Below, piece by piece: positions 8,295 through 44,772 of a DNA stretch of 64,000 nucleotides. The notes under the pieces were generated by a model. It did no database searches. It was not told where the DNA came from and worked only from the letters and a program-made list of their open reading frames with translations. Both the position numbers and the translations under genes were made by a program. The stretch lies in contig NZ_CP011509.1 in assembly GCF_001027285.1 (NCBI RefSeq), positions 8,828,501 through 8,892,500 on the forward strand. The letters run 5' to 3'. Each line of letters begins with the position of its first letter. Position 1 is the first letter of the stretch. This DNA comes from Archangium gephyra. Lineage in GTDB: Bacteria; Myxococcota; Myxococcia; Myxococcales; Myxococcaceae.

Positions 8295-10379
8295 ATGTCG
8301 GGACGCTTCGAGGCTCGTGGTGATGTCGGCATCATCTGGATCGACAACCCGCCTGTGAACGCCATCAGTCACGCCGTGCGGGTGGCGCTCCTCGACGGGT
8401 TGAAGCAGGCGGAGGCCAGCGGCGACATCCAGGCCGTGGTCATCGCCTGCGCCGGACGTACCTTCATGGCGGGCGCGGACATCACCGAGTTCAGTGGCCC
8501 GCTCAAGTCCCCGGGCCTGCCGGAGGTGATCGACGCGCTCGATGCCCTCTCCAAGCCGGTGGTGGCGGCGATCCACGGCACGGCCTTCGGCGGAGGCTTC
8601 GAGGTCGCGCTGGCCTGCGACCATCGCGTGGCCCTGGCCAGCGCCCAGGTCGGCCTGCCCGAGGTGAAGCTAGGCCTCCTGCCGGGTGCTGGCGGCACCC
8701 AGCGCCTGCCTCGCCTCGCCGGCCTCGAGCCGGCCTTGCAGGCCATGCTTTCCGGGGACCCGATCCCCGCGCCCGTGGCGCTCGGCATGGGCGCCATCGA
8801 CAAGCTCGTGGAGGGGGACCTGACCGAGGCCGCCGTCACCTTCGCGCGAGAGAAGATCGGCTCGCCGCGGCGCCGGGTGCGAGACCTCACCCTCGCACCC
8901 AACGCCGTCCCCGCCGGCTTCTTCGACGCGGCCCGCCAGCGCACGGCCAAGGAGAAGCGCAACCTCTTCTCGCCCCAGCGCATCATCGACGCGGTGGAGG
9001 CAGCGGTCACCCTCCCCTTCGACCAGGGCATCCAGCGTGAGCGCGAGCTGTTCCTCGAGTGCGCGCGGAACAGCCAGTCCAAGGCGCTCCAGCACGTCTT
9101 CTTCGCCGAGCGTCAGGTCTCCAAGATTCCGGGCCTCCCCGCCGACGTGAAGCCCCGCCCCATCCAGTCCGTGGCCATCATCGGCGCCGGCACCATGGGA
9201 GGCGGCATCGCCATGAACTTCGCGAACGCCGGCATCCCGGTCACCCTCCTGGAGGTGAACCAGGAAGGGCTGGAGCGCGGCCTGGGCGTCATCCGCAAGA
9301 ACTACGAGGCCACGGCGGCCAAGGGGCGGCTCACGGCGGAGCAGGTGGAGACCCGCATGGGCCTCATCCGCCCCACCCTCTCGTATGACGCGCTCGCCGG
9401 GGCGGACCTCGTCATCGAGGCGGTATTCGAGACACTCGAGGTCAAGAAGAAGGTCTTCGAGACACTGGACCGCGTCGCCAAAAAGGGCGCCGTCCTGGCC
9501 ACCAACACCTCCTACCTGTCCATCGACACCATCGCCGGCTACACCTCGCGCCCGGCGGACGTGCTGGGGATGCACTTCTTCTCCCCCGCCAACGTCATGA
9601 AGCTGTTGGAGGTCGTCCGCGGCACCCGGACCGCGCCCGACGTGCTCGCCACCGCGCTGGACATCGCCAAGCGCATCAAGAAAGTGGGTGTGGTGGCCGG
9701 CAACTGCCACGGCTTCATCGGCAACCGCATGCTGGAGGGCTACATGCGCGAGGGCAGTCTGCTCGTCCTCGAAGGCGCCACGCCGCAGCAGGTGGACCAG
9801 GCCCTGGTGAAGTTCGGAATGCCCATGGGCGTGCTCCAGATGGGCGACCTGGCCGGACTCGACATCGGCTACAAGTCGCGCAAGGACCGGGACCCCGCCA
9901 CCTTCGAGCCCAAGGCCGGCGCCGTGGCCGACAAGCTCGTCGAGATGGGCCGGCTCGGCCAGAAGACACAGGCGGGCTACTACGACTACCAGCCGGGCAA
10001 TCGCACCCCGGTTCCCTCCGACGCCGTGGCCCGGGTGATTGAAGAGACGGCGGCCGGGTACGGCATCCAGCGCCGGGAGATCACCGAGCAGGAGATCCTC
10101 GAGCGCTGCTTCCTGGCCATGGTGAACATCGGCTGCGAGGTGTTGCGCGAGGGTATCGCCTACCGCTCGAGCGACATCGACATCGTCTACCTCTACGGCT
10201 ACGGCTTCCCGGCGCACCGCGGGGGCCCGATGTTCTGGGCGGAGCACGAGCTCGGCCTGCCCCAGGCACTGGAGAAGATTCGCGAGTACGGCCGCAAGTA
10301 CGGAAACCGCTGGTGGACGCCCTCCCCGCTGCTGGAGCGGTTGGTCGCCGAGGGCAAGGGCTTCGCCCAGGCCGTCTGA
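8295..10379 (+). CDS. Fused enoyl-CoA hydratase / 3-hydroxyacyl-CoA dehydrogenase (FadJ/FadB-like)
   Basis: 694 residues. It catalyses two successive steps of beta-oxidation: hydration of enoyl-CoA and NAD-dependent oxidation of the 3-hydroxyacyl-CoA. The hydratase domain (1-190) keeps both catalytic Glu contexts, [11 protein letters not shown] and [17 protein letters not shown]. The dehydrogenase domain starts near 290 with the Rossmann motif [14 protein letters not shown] and has HFFSPAN and GFIGNR further on; the C-terminal 3HCDH repeat carries [12 protein letters not shown]. It is shorter than E. coli FadB (about 730) and looks like the peroxisomal or FadJ-type bifunctional enzyme. Two acyl-CoA dehydrogenase genes follow at 33 and 27 bases, forming an operon. 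No thiolase is in the window. Confidence 0.93.
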
Positions 10380-38251: not shown

Positions 38252-38620
38252 TCACGTCTGACGCTTGGAAGCGAGAGCCGCGAAGTTGAGGACGCCTTTC
38301 TCCTGCTGCCTCCAGAGCTCGCGAATGCCCCACTCCGCGTGATCGACGAGTATCCTGAGGCGATCCTCCGGCTCATCCTTGGGGTAACGGCCGAGCATGA
38401 CAGCGGCGAAGAGCTCTTCCGGGTCCAGACTGTTGATGTTCTGGAAGGTTCCACGCTGGCCCTTGGTATGGGTCTCTCCCGCTGCAAGACCCATGGCCGC
38501 ACCGAGTCTCCACCCGTCACGCTGTTCGGTGATGAGACCCATGTTGACCAGCTTCCTCAGGAGCTCCTTCGCCTCTTTGCTCGCGGGCACCGTTCTGGCC
38601 TCGCCAAATGCACTGCTCAT
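38252..38620 (-). CDS. Small protein of the DndD-like operon (122 residues)
   Basis: 122 residues from ATG 38620, which overlaps the end of the ATPase gene (stop at 38617). Soluble and helical, with no membrane or signal segment. SKEAKELLRKLVNMGLITEQRDGWRLGAAMGLAAG resembles a small helical DNA- or protein-binding domain. The end, DRLRILVDHAEWGIRELWRQQ, recalls the C-terminal pattern of small Dnd-associated proteins (from memory; not verifiable here). Last gene of the four-gene operon. Confidence 0.65.
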   Translation of the reverse strand: MSSAFGEARTVPASKEAKELLRKLVNMGLITEQRDGWRLGAAMGLAAGETHTKGQRGTFQNINSLDPEELFAAVMLGRYPKDEPEDRLRILVDHAEWGIRELWRQQEKGVLNFAALASKRQT

Positions 38621-40617
38621 CTGCTCGCCTCGGACTTGGTGGGAAAGAGATGTGAGCCGGACTTCTCGTCGCGGTAACGGATGGTCATGTCCGTCTTGAT
38701 GTTGCCATCGAGATGATGCTCGTCTCCCGCGCGGAACTCCCGGTCCGTCACCATCAAGACGACCTGTTTGGCCAGCTTCGGCAGGAAGGAGAGGATGTTC
38801 TTGCTGTGCTTGGTGTCGAGCCGTCCGAACGGTGTGTCCATGAACACCGGGGCGTCGAGCTCCGCGCATTGATTGAGCGCTCCGATGAGCGCCAGCGCGA
38901 CGACCTGCTCCTCTCCCGCGGAGCGCCACTCCGCACGGTCGAGGACGGTGCCTCCCTTGGTGATGATGTTCAAACCAAACTGCTGATTGATTTTGAGCTT
39001 GGAGAAAGAGCCCTTCGAACGGAGTTTCAGGAAGATGTCGGAGGCAGCGGACTCGACCTGCGTCCGCCGCTCGTCCCGATACTTATCCACCGCCTGCTGG
39101 AAAAACTCCGCCAACGACTTCGCATAGGCGATGCGCTCCGCCAGGGTCGCGATCTCCTTCTGATCGATCGTGCTGAGTTTCTGGTCCAGCTCCGCCTTCT
39201 CCTCGAGATCTTCGAGCCGGTTCTTTTCCACCGTCTCCTTGCGACCCCGGAGCCGCCCGAGTTCCTCCTTCATGCTACCAATCTTCACCTCGAGCCTGCG
39301 GGGCTCCTCATGATCGACCCTCGCCAGTTGCTCCTCGAGATCCTTGAGCTTCGCCTGCCGGACCGAACGTGTATGTGCGAGCTTGTGCAGCTTCGCCTCC
39401 ACCTCCTCGAAGCGCTGCGGCTCGAGGCGCTGCGAGCGCGCGTGCCGGAGACGGTTCACATGGTGCTCGAACTCGAGGTTCGGCTCGGGGACCTCTGTCA
39501 ATTCCTTGATTTTGATTTTGACCTCCTCGAGCTCGTCTTGGAGCGCGCGAAGCTTGCCGGCATTGAGGACATGGCCGCACTGCTGGCACTTCTGCGCGGC
39601 CAACCCTTTGGCAAGACCTTCTGCCTTGCCGGTGAGCTTTAGCTTCTCGTTGTACTTCTCCATGCTCTTCGCATGGCGTGCCTCGAGTCGCGCGATGATG
39701 GGCTCCGAGGTGTTCACGAGAATCGTCTTGTAGAGCTCCGAGACGAGGCGCTGCTGCGTCTCGAGCTCATGCGCGTGGTCCTTCTCCAGATCCTTGATTT
39801 CCGCATCGAGTTTCAGGCGCTGCTGCGCCAGGTCACTCACGGCGCGAATCTCCGACTGGCGCCGCTTCTTCTCCGCGAGCTCCGCCTCGAGCTCGTTCAT
39901 CTGCACCTGGAGTTTGCGGATCTCCTCTTCTCTCTCCTGGATCCGGGCACTGACCTTCTGGAACGCCTCGACGACCTGCTGGTAATCCTTCCCCCCCAGC
40001 TTCCGGATCAGCCGCGAGCGCTCGTTCTCGAGCCGGCGCTGGACTTCGTTGAGGTCGTCGCGCGCGATCAGGAGATAGGGAATTCCGAGGACTCTCTCGA
40101 TGGAATTCCTGAGCATTTCCATGGAGGAGGTCGTCTGGTCGAGCAACTCCTCGTAATCCCTGAGCATCTCACCATCGAAGAAGAAGAAACGGCTCACCTC
40201 CCGGGGGAGGAGCCGCTGGATGACATGCTCGGCGTTGGACAGGGGCTCTCCATTGGCCACCACGGAGAAGGTCAAGGTTCCCTTGTCGATCGCGCTATCG
40301 GAGCCGGACCTGGCCGTGATGCGCCGGAGCACGGTCCACTTCTTGCCCTCGTGTTGGAAGTGCAGCTTCACGGAGAATTGGTAGGAGCCCTCGCCGCGAG
40401 CCGCGGAGTTGAGAAGCGACGCCAGGCGGATGGGCTTCCCCTTGCGATCCAGGACCTCGTTGTAGAGGCACCAGAGAATCGCACGCTGGAGGGAGGTCTT
40501 GCCCTGCCCATTGTCGCCACGGATGAGATGAACACCAGCGCCACCCGCGGCGAAGGCAATCTCATGGTCCCCTTTGTACGGACCGAAGTTGTGGAGTTCC
40601 ACCTTCTCAATCAGCAT
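38617..40617 (-). CDS. DndD/Rad50-like SMC ATPase with zinc hook
   Basis: 666 residues. N-terminal Walker A GDNGQGKTS (Lys40), then FFFFDGEML (about 144-152), a motif close to that of DndD proteins. Two coiled-coil arms (about 185-330 and 355-530) flank CQQC (Cys344, Cys347), a Rad50-type zinc hook for dimerisation. The C-terminal half has the signature RSAGEEQVVALALIGAL and Walker B/D-loop APVFMDTPFGRLD. DndD and Rad50 relatives act as DNA-tethering ATPases; DndD belongs to phosphorothioate DNA modification. No dndB, dndC, dndE or cysteine desulfurase gene is present, so modification itself is not the role seen here. Start and stop overlap both neighbouring genes. Confidence 0.87.
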   Translation of the reverse strand: MLIEKVELHNFGPYKGDHEIAFAAGGAGVHLIRGDNGQGKTSLQRAILWCLYNEVLDRKGKPIRLASLLNSAARGEGSYQFSVKLHFQHEGKKWTVLRRITARSGSDSAIDKGTLTFSVVANGEPLSNAEHVIQRLLPREVSRFFFFDGEMLRDYEELLDQTTSSMEMLRNSIERVLGIPYLLIARDDLNEVQRRLENERSRLIRKLGGKDYQQVVEAFQKVSARIQEREEEIRKLQVQMNELEAELAEKKRRQSEIRAVSDLAQQRLKLDAEIKDLEKDHAHELETQQRLVSELYKTILVNTSEPIIARLEARHAKSMEKYNEKLKLTGKAEGLAKGLAAQKCQQCGHVLNAGKLRALQDELEEVKIKIKELTEVPEPNLEFEHHVNRLRHARSQRLEPQRFEEVEAKLHKLAHTRSVRQAKLKDLEEQLARVDHEEPRRLEVKIGSMKEELGRLRGRKETVEKNRLEDLEEKAELDQKLSTIDQKEIATLAERIAYAKSLAEFFQQAVDKYRDERRTQVESAASDIFLKLRSKGSFSKLKINQQFGLNIITKGGTVLDRAEWRSAGEEQVVALALIGALNQCAELDAPVFMDTPFGRLDTKHSKNILSFLPKLAKQVVLMVTDREFRAGDEHHLDGNIKTDMTIRYRDEKSGSHLFPTKSEASR

Positions 40618-40813
40618 CCGTCGTCCCTCCGACGCGCTCGCTGAGGAGCGAGAAGATCTGATCCTGGCAGGCCTTGCGATCGTCGGCGAGGGGGTTCTTG
40701 ATCACGAGGGAGACGATCTCGCGCAAGACCTCCTCGTCCACCTGGCGCTTGCTCTCACGGAGCAGGCGCCGGAGGATCTCAAGGAGCTCATTCACCTTGT
40801 CATCCATGCTCAT
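40607..40813 (-). CDS. 68-residue protein between helicase and ATPase genes
   Basis: 68 residues from ATG 40813 (a second ATG is at 40807). Its start overlaps the helicase end and its end overlaps the ATPase start by 11 bases, so it is translated as part of the operon. Predicted helical and strongly charged: KVNELLEILRRLLRESKRQVDEE, then IVSLVIKNPLADDRKACQDQIFSLL. Such small proteins sit beside ATPase genes in several DNA modification or defence loci and probably serve as a subunit. I do not recognise a named family. Confidence 0.7.
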   Translation of the reverse strand: MSMDDKVNELLEILRRLLRESKRQVDEEVLREIVSLVIKNPLADDRKACQDQIFSLLSERVGGTTDAD

Positions 40814-42992
40814 CGTTCATTTCCTCGTCTTCGATACCGGCTTGCGCGTCCGCATGGAGGTCGAGCTCGTAGCGCTCGCAGAGTCGCCAAAGCCGATGTA
40901 GGACGTCCTTGTTGAGAGAGTGCATCGCGAACGTGTAGGCACGCGCGAGTTCGCTGCGGAGGATGACGTCGGAGCGGAGGTCATGCTCCCGTTCAGCGGC
41001 GGGGAGGACAAGCGTATCCACGATATGCGCCCGCTCCTTGCCTGGCGCCTTGCGGAGGATACGGCCGCGACGTTGGATGTACTCCCGGGGGTTGGAGGAA
41101 GAGGCGAGAATCACCGCGCCATCCGCTCGGGGGAGATCCACGCCTTCGTCCAGACAGCGGATGGCGACGATGATGCTCGCCTCCTCCGTGAAGTGCTCAA
41201 GCACCCGGGCCCGCTCATCCGAGGACAAGCCGGAATGGTAGTTGAGCACGGTCGTCTGCGGCAGCCTCCGACGGAGCGCGTTCGTCACGAGGTTCAGTTG
41301 TGCCGAATCGTCACAATAGACGATCCAGCGCCCACCGGGCTCGTAGCGTGTCGAGAGGACGGTTTCCGCCACCTGAGGCTTGCCCGCGGCGTGTTTGATG
41401 ATCCGCGCTCGTTGGATGAGCAGATTGCGGAGCTTGTCTCGCGCCGCTTGAGGAAGAGCGCCCTGGGAGTGGCTCAGACGTGAAGTCCGCGCGGCGAGTT
41501 GCTGGATTTCACGGGTGAAGCCATCCCATTCGCCCTGCTCCCGTGAGTCGAGATGGACGACCTCGAAGTCATAATCGTACGGGCAGAGGAAGTGGCCGAG
41601 GACGGGAACGCGCTCATCGCTCCGGCTGTGGAGCCGCACGTGGTCTCCGAGTCCGAGCTCGAAGACGGGCCGCTCGCCGAAGACGCGCGACAACGCGAGG
41701 TTGCCTTCATCATCGTGGAGCCGTTGGGGCGTTGCCGAGAGCCCAAGGCGTTCCGCGAACGGAAGCTCGAGAATGCGACGGAAGGTCGGACTGCCAAGGC
41801 GGTGCACTTCGTCCACGACGAGAACCGGGTCCTTCGCCTGCCGGAAGAACTCGAGGAAATCCTCCGTCGCGGCGGTCTGCATCGTGGCGAGAACGATTCG
41901 TGGCAGCGCCGTCGCGCCGACGAACAGGCGCTTGGAGGAATCGGCTCGCCAATCGTAACCGCCCCCAGCGAGCAGGACCGGCGCATCGGGAAGGAAGGTG
42001 CGCAGGTTCTTCAGCCACTGCTCCAACAAGAGGCTGCTCGGCACGAGAATCAGGATCGGGCGTCCGGCCTCGACCAGGCGGCGAATGGCGAACAAGGACG
42101 TGATGGTCTTGCCCAGACCCGTCGCCATGGCCAGCAGGCCACGGCCCCCCGCGGCCTCCCAGGCTCGCACTGCCTCTTTCTGGTAGTGATACAGGCCATC
42201 CTCTGCGACGGTGTCGTTCCTGGCCCGTTTCCGAGCACCCGCCCGGCAATCCTCGAAGTCACGGTGCGAGCGGAAGCGCATGAGGACGTCGCGTTCCGTC
42301 TGATTCAGTGGGCGGACCTGGGTTCCGCGAGTCCCTCCACTGAACAGGCGCTCGAGGTAGGCGCCCTTGCGCTCCGCCTTCCCGCGCTCGTACGGCTCAC
42401 CCCAGCTGCGGAACACGTCGAACTCCTCGTCGTTCCCCCACTCCTCGTGTGAGCTGATGGCGGGTCTCGTCTCGTTGCCAGAGCCGGAGAAGACCACCGT
42501 GTTCCCATGGCGATCCGCGAACAAACCGATCTTGCGGTGGTAGATCCCACCCGGCCGCACCGCGACGTAGAGGTCCAGTGCCCCCTTCTCGATGAGCAGG
42601 CGGAGCATGTCGAGGCAGTCCGCCTCGTCCGGCTGCCCGGCCATGGCCTCCATCACCTGGACGAGATCCGCCTCGATGGCCTCTGCCGGTCGCTGGCCAC
42701 GCCGCTCGTACCCACCGCGTGCGGCCTCCTCGTCCCTCTCGGACATGTCGGGAGAGCAGACGACGCGGACATGGCCTCCCCGGATGACGAAGTCGAGAAG
42801 GGGCTCACCGAGCTCCCGGTAGATGCTCGCACGGAAGTACCCGACCGCACGGTCATACTGCCTCGCCTGCTGGAAACACGGCACGTAGAGCTCGACGACG
42901 AGGTCATTCTCCTCGGTGTCGTACTCCGAGGCCAACTCGAGCGTCTGCAACCCTCGCGGCGCGCCTTCTGATTCAACCATGAGAATCGTCAC
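40800..42992 (-). CDS. PLD-nuclease/superfamily 2 helicase fusion
   Basis: 730 residues from GTG 42992, or 726 from ATG 42980; the upstream G-run fits neither perfectly. The N-terminal domain (1-220) is phospholipase-D-like: YHRKIGLFAD (His152, Lys154) and GSGNET (170-175), the pattern of PLD domains attached to helicases and restriction nucleases. The helicase core has Walker A ATGLGKT (Lys295), DEVH (394-397), GLSATPQR (418-424) and motif VI QRRGRILR near 660. It would unwind or translocate DNA and possibly cut it. The same combination is known in restriction enzymes of Dnd systems and in phage defence. First gene of the operon; stop overlaps the 68-residue protein. Confidence 0.87.
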   Translation of the reverse strand: MTILMVESEGAPRGLQTLELASEYDTEENDLVVELYVPCFQQARQYDRAVGYFRASIYRELGEPLLDFVIRGGHVRVVCSPDMSERDEEAARGGYERRGQRPAEAIEADLVQVMEAMAGQPDEADCLDMLRLLIEKGALDLYVAVRPGGIYHRKIGLFADRHGNTVVFSGSGNETRPAISSHEEWGNDEEFDVFRSWGEPYERGKAERKGAYLERLFSGGTRGTQVRPLNQTERDVLMRFRSHRDFEDCRAGARKRARNDTVAEDGLYHYQKEAVRAWEAAGGRGLLAMATGLGKTITSLFAIRRLVEAGRPILILVPSSLLLEQWLKNLRTFLPDAPVLLAGGGYDWRADSSKRLFVGATALPRIVLATMQTAATEDFLEFFRQAKDPVLVVDEVHRLGSPTFRRILELPFAERLGLSATPQRLHDDEGNLALSRVFGERPVFELGLGDHVRLHSRSDERVPVLGHFLCPYDYDFEVVHLDSREQGEWDGFTREIQQLAARTSRLSHSQGALPQAARDKLRNLLIQRARIIKHAAGKPQVAETVLSTRYEPGGRWIVYCDDSAQLNLVTNALRRRLPQTTVLNYHSGLSSDERARVLEHFTEEASIIVAIRCLDEGVDLPRADGAVILASSSNPREYIQRRGRILRKAPGKERAHIVDTLVLPAAEREHDLRSDVILRSELARAYTFAMHSLNKDVLHRLWRLCERYELDLHADAQAGIEDEEMNDEHG

Positions 42993-43008
42993 CCCCCTCT
43001 GCCCTCGA

Positions 43009-43033
43009 GGAGACAGGCTTTGAACCTGTCTCC
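43009..43033 (-). terminator. Hairpin between tldD-like gene and helicase operon
   Basis: GGAGACAGG (43009-43017) and CCTGTCTCC (43025-43033) form a perfect nine-base-pair stem with a seven-base loop. It lies 12 bases after the protease stop and 17 bases before the helicase start. There is no T-run on the minus strand. It probably ends or attenuates transcription from the protease gene. Confidence 0.6.
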
Positions 43034-43044
43034 CCCCTTGGCCC

Positions 43045-44772
43045 CTACTTCACTTCATCGCTGGCGGTGGTACCCGCCGTCGGGCTGAGCAGGATGGGGG
43101 GCCGGTCCTTGCCCTCCACCGTGCGCTGCAGCTCGATCTCCTGCAGCAGCACCGCTGGCGCCACCGTGGACACCGGCACGTTCCCGCTCTCCGCTCCGCA
43201 GTAGCCGTTGAAGATGCCCTGCTTGCGGCCCGTCGCCATGATCCGGTTGATCGACGACAGCGGCGTGCCCACGATCTCCACCCCGCGCACCAGCGACTCC
43301 TGCCCCGTCTTCACGTCCACCCGGTACACCATCCGCGGCACGCCCTTGAACGCCTGGTAGCCGTAGCTCGACGTGTTCGTGTTGCCGCCCGTGATGTCCC
43401 GGATGATGAGCCCGTACGGCTTGCCCTGACGCTTCGCCTCGGCGATCAGCTGCTTCTTCAGCTCCACGTCCTCCACCTGCTTCGCCGACTCGACGATCAG
43501 GTTGGCCATGCGCGCCACCGGCTTGCGCGTACCCTGGCTGCGCCCGTGCCCGTTGGACTGCAGGAAACCCTCCACCGGCCGCCTCGACAGCAGATAGCCC
43601 TTCAGCACGCCCTTCTCCACCAGCACCGTCCGCTGCCCCTTCACGCCCTCCTCGTCGTACTCGTAGAAGCCATTGAGCGGCTCCTCCCGCAGCGTGCGCA
43701 CCGTCGGGTCATCCACCAGCGTGATGAACGGCGGCAGCACCAGCTTGCCCACCTGGCCCCGGAACGTCTTCCCCTCCCCTTCCCCGTCCTGCCGGTCTCC
43801 CTCCAGCCGGTGCCCCATGGTCTCGTGGAACAACACCCCCGCCGCCTCCGCCGCGAGGATCGCCGGTCCCGTGTATGGATCGATCGCCGGTGCCTTGCGC
43901 AGCGCCAGCAGCTCCTCGATCACCTTGTGGGTGGCCTCGGCCAGCTTCTTGTCATCTGGCAGCCCCGCCTCGGTGGGCGAGTAGTAGTTGCGCGAGTTGT
44001 CCAGCAGCTGCCCGTCCTCGGCCCGCGTCACCGCCATCACATGCAGCCCGTACATCGTCTCTTCCGTCACGATGCGGCTGCCCTCGGTGGACACGAACAG
44101 GCGCCTCACCTTGTCCGCCGTCACCCGCACCTCCGAGTCGAAGATCTCCGGGTGCGCCTTGAAACGCGCCGACACCTCACGCGCCACCCGGACCCACCGG
44201 TCGTGGTCGAACGGGAAGGCCACCGCCGGCTGCACGTACGTGACCGGCTTCTCCTTGGAGAAGGACGCCGTCTGGGTCGGCTCCTCCACCGCGTAGACGT
44301 TGTCGGCCTTCTTCTTGAGGAACTGCGAGAGCGCGGCCTTGTACTTCTCGTCCGTCACCAGCCACAGCGAGGTGCGCAGCGCCAGGGCCGAGTCGTCGAT
44401 GGGGGCGTCCTTGTTGGCGACGTAGCTGGAGCCCTTGCCGCCGCCGAAGAAGTCGTACTCCTCGGGGCCCGAGTTGTCGAACGCGTACGAGCCCACCCGC
44501 ACGTCCACGTACAGCTTGCGCTCGTGGTACGAGTCATCCAGGAAGATCGCCCCGTACCGGGCGACGATGCCGTGCTGCTCCCCCTCCTTGAGCTGGTAGC
44601 TCATGAAGTAGGGAGGCTCGTGGTTCTGCAGCTTGAGCTGCTTCTGGTTGCGTTGGAGCTCCTCCGCCATGGCATCCAGCAGCGTCACGCGCGCGTCCGG
44701 AGCGGGCGCGGCGGCGGTGAGCAGGACGGAGGCGGCGAGCAGGGGAAGGACGGTCCAGGTTCGGGTTCGCAC
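43045..44772 (-). CDS. Exported TldD/PmbA-family metallopeptidase
   Basis: 575 residues. The start MRTRTWTVLPLLAASVLLTAAAPAP is a signal peptide, unlike cytoplasmic E. coli TldD. The zinc site HETMGH (about 313) carries the TldD HExxxH pattern. Further family signatures are EGDRQDGEGEGKTFRGQVG, GFYEYDEEGVKGQRTVLVEKGVLKGYL and GHGRSQGTRKPVARMANL. TldD normally works with TldE to degrade unfolded peptides or mature microcins; no tldE partner is in the window. The C-terminal 30 residues (VAPAVLLQEIELQRTVEGKDRPPIL) match exported myxobacterial versions. Confidence 0.87.
   Translation of the reverse strand: MRTRTWTVLPLLAASVLLTAAAPAPDARVTLLDAMAEELQRNQKQLKLQNHEPPYFMSYQLKEGEQHGIVARYGAIFLDDSYHERKLYVDVRVGSYAFDNSGPEEYDFFGGGKGSSYVANKDAPIDDSALALRTSLWLVTDEKYKAALSQFLKKKADNVYAVEEPTQTASFSKEKPVTYVQPAVAFPFDHDRWVRVAREVSARFKAHPEIFDSEVRVTADKVRRLFVSTEGSRIVTEETMYGLHVMAVTRAEDGQLLDNSRNYYSPTEAGLPDDKKLAEATHKVIEELLALRKAPAIDPYTGPAILAAEAAGVLFHETMGHRLEGDRQDGEGEGKTFRGQVGKLVLPPFITLVDDPTVRTLREEPLNGFYEYDEEGVKGQRTVLVEKGVLKGYLLSRRPVEGFLQSNGHGRSQGTRKPVARMANLIVESAKQVEDVELKKQLIAEAKRQGKPYGLIIRDITGGNTNTSSYGYQAFKGVPRMVYRVDVKTGQESLVRGVEIVGTPLSSINRIMATGRKQGIFNGYCGAESGNVPVSTVAPAVLLQEIELQRTVEGKDRPPILLSPTAGTTASDEVK

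Follow-up and report, generated by a model that had tools for sequence, protein, structure and literature searches.

Results

Layout and identity of the operon

The window, as the whole analysed stretch of 64,000 nucleotides of Archangium gephyra DNA is called here, contains four open reading frames on its minus strand at 38252-42992, which overlap by 14, 11 and 4 bp. The locus is laid out as follows.

43045..44772, minus strand: tldD-like gene, a conserved chromosomal neighbour at the edge of a variable spot, outside the system
43007..43035, minus strand: stem-loop between tldD and pbeA, z-score -4.7
40800..42992, minus strand: pbeA, 730 aa, fusion of a PLD (HKD) nuclease domain and an SF2 helicase
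40607..40813, minus strand: pbeB, 68 aa, overlapping pbeA by 14 bp
38617..40617, minus strand: pbeC, 666 aa, ABC ATPase with coiled coil and CxxC hook, overlapping pbeB by 11 bp
38252..38620, minus strand: pbeD, 122 aa, predicted DndE-fold DNA-binding partner of PbeC, overlapping pbeC by 4 bp

The start of pbeA is taken as the GTG at 42992, the ATG at 42980 being possible as well. None of the four frames has an internal stop and no frameshift occurs across the 4.7 kb. The operon is the known system pbeA-pbeB-pbeC-pbeD, and an intact, real member of its kind. An earlier note on this DNA had described the same four overlapping genes and seen in them a defence-type module of a PLD-helicase, a DndD-like ATPase and two small genes, in agreement with this assignment, but had taken the system to be undescribed. 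The latter is ruled out by PADLOC, NCBIfam and the literature (PMC6459918 and PMC10853773), since the best PADLOC matches are to the already named PbeABCD with the same four genes.

In 2019 PbeABCD was reported from Haloterrigena jeotgali A29 as a cassette directed against viruses, under the heading of phosphorothioate-blocked DNA exclusion (PMC6459918). The window operon resembles it in its four genes, their order, sizes and domains, and in overlaps as in a co-transcribed unit; the published PbeB and PbeD have 66 and 152 aa and the gene order is the same. The two differ in that the window operon has no dndCDEA nearby and its genome no DndC, and in that its PbeC carries a CxxC hook and belongs to a methyltransferase-linked branch. 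The cassette was re-read in PMC10853773 as HKD-SF2 helicase (PbeA), small protein (PbeB), CxC ABC ATPase (PbeC) and DndE (PbeD), and CxC ABC ATPase-DndE systems with cytosine-N4 or C5 methylases were stated to exist as well. The window operon shares with these methylase systems the HKD-SF2 helicase, the small protein, the ABC ATPase, DndE and the branch, but is without a methylase and has CxxC instead of CxC. DndABCDE and SspABCD are comparable in that DndD and DndE are related to PbeC and PbeD; however, this genome has neither DndC nor SspD, and its ATPase scores better against the PbeC model than against that of DndD.

PbeA and PbeC

The 730-aa protein matches the PADLOC PbeA model with E 3.6e-176 and NCBIfam TIGR04095 (dnd_restrict_1) with E 4.5e-92, the latter at a score under the model's curated cut-off. 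Residues H152, K154 and G170-S171-N173 are unchanged across an alignment of nine diverse homologues, as are the helicase residues ATGxGKT, DE-H, ATP of SATP and QRRGR. The AF2 model of residues 1-253 has a pLDDT of 84, and a PDB fold search with the N-terminus returned PLD nucleases, SauUSI being the best (E 3.2e-6), together with BfiI and NucT. The PLD-helicase fusion with HxK, GSGNET and SF2 motifs that had been recognised before is thereby borne out, both by conservation and by fold. No Mokosh model was among the PADLOC matches listed for PbeA. SauUSI (PDB 7clg) is a single-protein, modification-dependent (type IV) enzyme in which, as in PbeA, an N-terminal PLD nuclease is followed by an SF2 helicase; PbeA differs in being shorter and in acting together with PbeBCD. 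Identity of the window PbeA to the aligned dnd-, ssp- and haloarchaeal-type homologues is only 30-33%.

The PADLOC PbeC model matches the 666-aa protein with E 4.8e-113 and the DndD model more weakly (6.6e-59); the NCBIfam DndD model also matches, with a score under the curated cut-off. Walker A, FFFFDGE, the CxxC hook (C344, C347), signature and Walker B are all present. Of the SMC ATPase proposed earlier, the Walker motifs, FFFFDGE and CxxC hold, also on alignment with homologues, whereas the SMC label does not: the protein is an ABC ATPase similar to DndD and Rad50 that belongs to the PbeC family and has no SMC hinge.

The small proteins

PbeB agrees in size and position with the published 66-aa protein (PMC6459918), lies within the range of about 60-80 aa expected of a gene product encoded between pbeA and pbeC, and shows 36-43% identity to the small proteins encoded at this position in the closest relatives. 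A Pfam search with PbeB and PbeD gave no family above cut-off, and the identity of PbeD was therefore settled by its fold. The AF2 model of PbeD (pLDDT 90.8) aligned to solved DndE structures in VIA-align with Z 12.7 (4lrv), 12.1 (7x4e) and 11.9, the next rows having 7.1, and an hhalign profile comparison with DndE proteins aligned 101 columns at E 9e-6. On this modelled structure the 122-aa protein has the DndE fold, as had been proposed for PbeD in PMC10853773, and the earlier statement that the operon is without DndE is contradicted. PbeD is 48-57% identical to the PbeD proteins of its seven-member clade (see below). That both small proteins would be required agrees with the published system, in which deletion of pbeB, pbeC or pbeD abolishes protection (PMC6459918).

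Relatives and linked modification genes

A genome scan with a single sequence gave no match, and an alignment-based scan gave matches. In all, 93 PbeA loci were collected, window included. Most of them were picked for their resemblance to the PbeA of the window, and the shares of the modules given below therefore do not represent the family at large. Nearly all loci have the order PbeA-(small gene)-PbeC-PbeD, one plasmid having B-C-D-A, and this order is found also in a genome of the same taxonomic order (G027) and in plasmid relatives. Conservation of the four-gene order, a check put forward earlier, is thus seen in nearly all relatives. In the fetched flanks, similarity to known neighbours identified methyltransferases at 51 loci and a rough motif rule did so at a further 12; dndC was present at 10 loci and ssp genes at 7. 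Where at least 8 kb was at hand on both sides, 46 of 52 loci carried a modification module; the window is one of the six without, and two of the other five carry dndD.

In the PbeC tree, made from 86 rows by a quick method and with several long branches, the window PbeC falls in a seven-member clade with an SH-aLRT of 100. The contigs of the other members are labelled Bathyarchaeota, Methanocellaceae, Methanoperedenaceae, Methanofastidiosum, Clostridia bin and Epsilonproteobacteria bin, and identities to the window are 48-53% for PbeA and 44-49% for PbeC. The clade is nested in a 61-row branch (support 97) in which nearly every member has its link to methyltransferases rather than to phosphorothioation. 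In four clade members (L035, L036, L038 and L040) an N4/N6 methyltransferase gene, belonging to PF01555 and having the motif TSPPF, precedes pbeA at distances of 1, 21, 18 and 38 bp; for L037 and L039 the upstream sequence covers only 155 and 118 bp. In L038, the Methanoperedenaceae contig, the methyltransferase gene lies at 9041-9964.

The hook type of PbeC tracks the branch of the tree over the 86 loci, despite the naming of the family after CxC. All 61 rows of the methyltransferase-linked branch have CxxC in the hook region, five of them CxC as well, whereas the 23-row branch of dnd- and ssp-linked and haloarchaeal loci has CxC alone in 20, CxxC in one and both in two.

Some further observations were made on these loci. 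Genes of the sspA/sspB/sspC type adjoin pbe genes in L010 (7285-18401) and lie upstream of pbeA in L095, L103, L105, L107, L112 and L117, with sspD beside them in L010 and L117; PADLOC reports SspA-D in L010, SspA-C in L103 and, for L117, SspD. The available text of PMC6459918 and PMC10853773 makes no mention of such a pairing. In many proteobacterial loci the gene after pbeD encodes a protein distantly similar to MzaA, which in L008 (14651-15964) was shown to combine an RNA polymerase alpha-CTD domain with a sigma-region-4 domain; L041, L042, L043, L046, L055, L059, L076, L078 and L080 also have the MzaA-like protein. PbeA-type genes are present on viral-classed contigs as well (L115, L116 and L117 from IMG/VR, and the phage records MT835506 and MT835493), some of which also hold methyltransferase or ssp genes.

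Genomic site

The tldD-like protein is 86-92% identical in four congeners, and in a fifth the gene is split into two frames. The tldD side of the site has 89-95% nucleotide identity to all five congeners, and this similarity stops near the 3' end of tldD, at 43009-43045. The stem-loop at 43007-43035 is likely to close tldD in the manner of a terminator and to mark the edge of an acquired segment. Its loop resembles a tRNA T-arm (GGTTCAAAGCC), and congener G003 has a comparable hairpin behind its tldD. A tRNA integration site is not claimed despite this likeness, as the window and the congener loci are without tRNA genes according to ARAGORN.

PbeC and PbeA are absent from the five congeners, which makes the operon variable among them, and the cargo behind tldD differs in each. 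In G003 (L034:5897-7603) a GmrSD-like gene lies behind tldD (PADLOC HEC-05, E 1.2e-63), and the spot may be a defence-gene hotspot. The YARHG neighbour was rejected as an anchor for the empty site because its surroundings differ among congeners, and only the tldD side of the site is therefore defined. The operon has a GC content of 0.61 against about 0.68, and a GC3 of 0.79-0.83 against about 0.93 in its neighbours. GC3 of the clade relatives is near 0.3, which rules each of them out as the direct donor.

Modification genes in the genome

Only 52 bp separate the tldD stop from the pbeA start, and no methyltransferase gene lies between them. In the 12.49-Mb single-contig genome the profile of the clade methyltransferase, used to look for a cognate enzyme elsewhere, has no full-length match; its sole match is C-terminal, at 50 bits, in a gene common to all congeners. 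DndC (TIGR03183) has no match in the genome, in keeping with the lack of sulfur-insertion genes noted earlier for the operon. SspD is absent as well, the only two PAPS_reduct genes being read from their sequences as CysD and CysH, which leaves the genome with no sulfurtransferase of the Dnd or Ssp type. The C5 and D12 methylase families are absent from the genome. Other methylases are present: three genes score over the cut-off of PF01555, and there are several M subunits of type I systems (N6_Mtase).

Discussion

We consider it quite probable that the operon is a complete PbeABCD of the methyltransferase branch that was acquired horizontally behind tldD, stands without a modification gene and is most likely dormant or uses the mark of an unrelated methylase. 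In an intact relative, PbeC with its zinc hook and the DndE-fold PbeD would scan DNA for the target and read the presence of the host methyl mark, PbeB would couple or restrain the complex, and on unmarked invading DNA the PbeA helicase would translocate, with the PLD domain leading to a replication block or to cutting. For the H. jeotgali system virus DNA was reported to stay intact while replication was blocked (PMC6459918), and PMC10853773 favours cleavage instead. With the cognate N4/N6 methyltransferase missing, the module in A. gephyra may lie dormant, or may be served by the mark of an unrelated host methylase. These two states appear the most likely because pbeABCD without modification gave neither protection nor toxicity in the haloarchaeal system (PMC6459918), which would also explain how an orphan copy can be carried without harm. 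Sequence comparison suggests that the methyltransferase was lost from this copy or never present in it, the loss being judged from relatives at 44-53% identity (PbeA, PbeC) while the direct donor is unseen. Against such an orphaned and perhaps dormant module, four intact frames with all checked catalytic residues are less expected if it has long been useless. The absence of protection was observed with a PbeABCD of the phosphorothioate type and may not carry over, the requirement for phosphorothioate modification having been shown for H. jeotgali only (PMC6459918), and the PF01555 and type I M methylases of the genome could supply a usable mark.

One may ask whether the operon is instead a decaying, unexpressed remnant that lost its methyltransferase together with a promoter segment on joining the tldD spot, which we regard as rather unlikely. 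It would fit the start of pbeA within 17 bp of the strong stem-loop behind tldD and the lack of a promoter upstream of pbeA in a scan limited to the sigma-70-like type, but decay is hard to see in 4.7 kb with all motifs intact and free of frameshifts and stops, and same-strand read-through from tldD could express the operon. That the module is active, using a mark set by an unlinked host enzyme such as the one of PF01555 at G000:4439332, which is common to all congeners, or the M subunit of a type I system, is distinctly unlikely in our judgement. Intact genes, the three PF01555 and several N6_Mtase genes, and the dependence of the published PbeABCD on the mark itself and not on contact with the marking enzymes (PMC6459918) speak for it. 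Yet the host enzymes match the Pbe-linked profile only over the C-terminal third and at about 50 bits or less, and cognate methyltransferases in the branch are mostly adjacent to pbe.

A module independent of modification, with DNA ends, replication intermediates or a phage product as its cue for cutting DNA, seems very unlikely. It comes close to the stand-alone nuclease-translocase of the earlier note, which is at odds with the sole experiment, in which unmarked pbeABCD gave no protection (PMC6459918), and the modification modules at 46 of the 52 well-flanked loci, with dndD at two of the other six, also weigh against it. The frames are nonetheless intact although neither a local nor a cognate modification gene is present, and PMC10853773 has proposed a suicide-effector model, close to this reading, in which PbeB acts as an inhibitor until a virus brings about its release. 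Solitary cassettes moreover recur, making up 165 of 553 in PMC6459918, where 320 of 553 were without sulfur-insertion genes. It would be a bold proposal, and an improbable one, that a PbeABCD of the methylation branch defends without an enzyme that marks self, its PbeC/PbeD scanner using a cue other than a missing mark.

It was not settled in PMC6459918 whether a solitary Pbe cassette is dead or has a partner other than phosphorothioation. Being an intact operon in a single-contig genome without DndC, SspD or a full-length methyltransferase match, the window copy is a clean natural test case for such cassettes. For the family as a whole, the hook type of each branch together with the Ssp-Pbe pairings suggests that Pbe is a general read-and-block module that is plugged into several marking chemistries.
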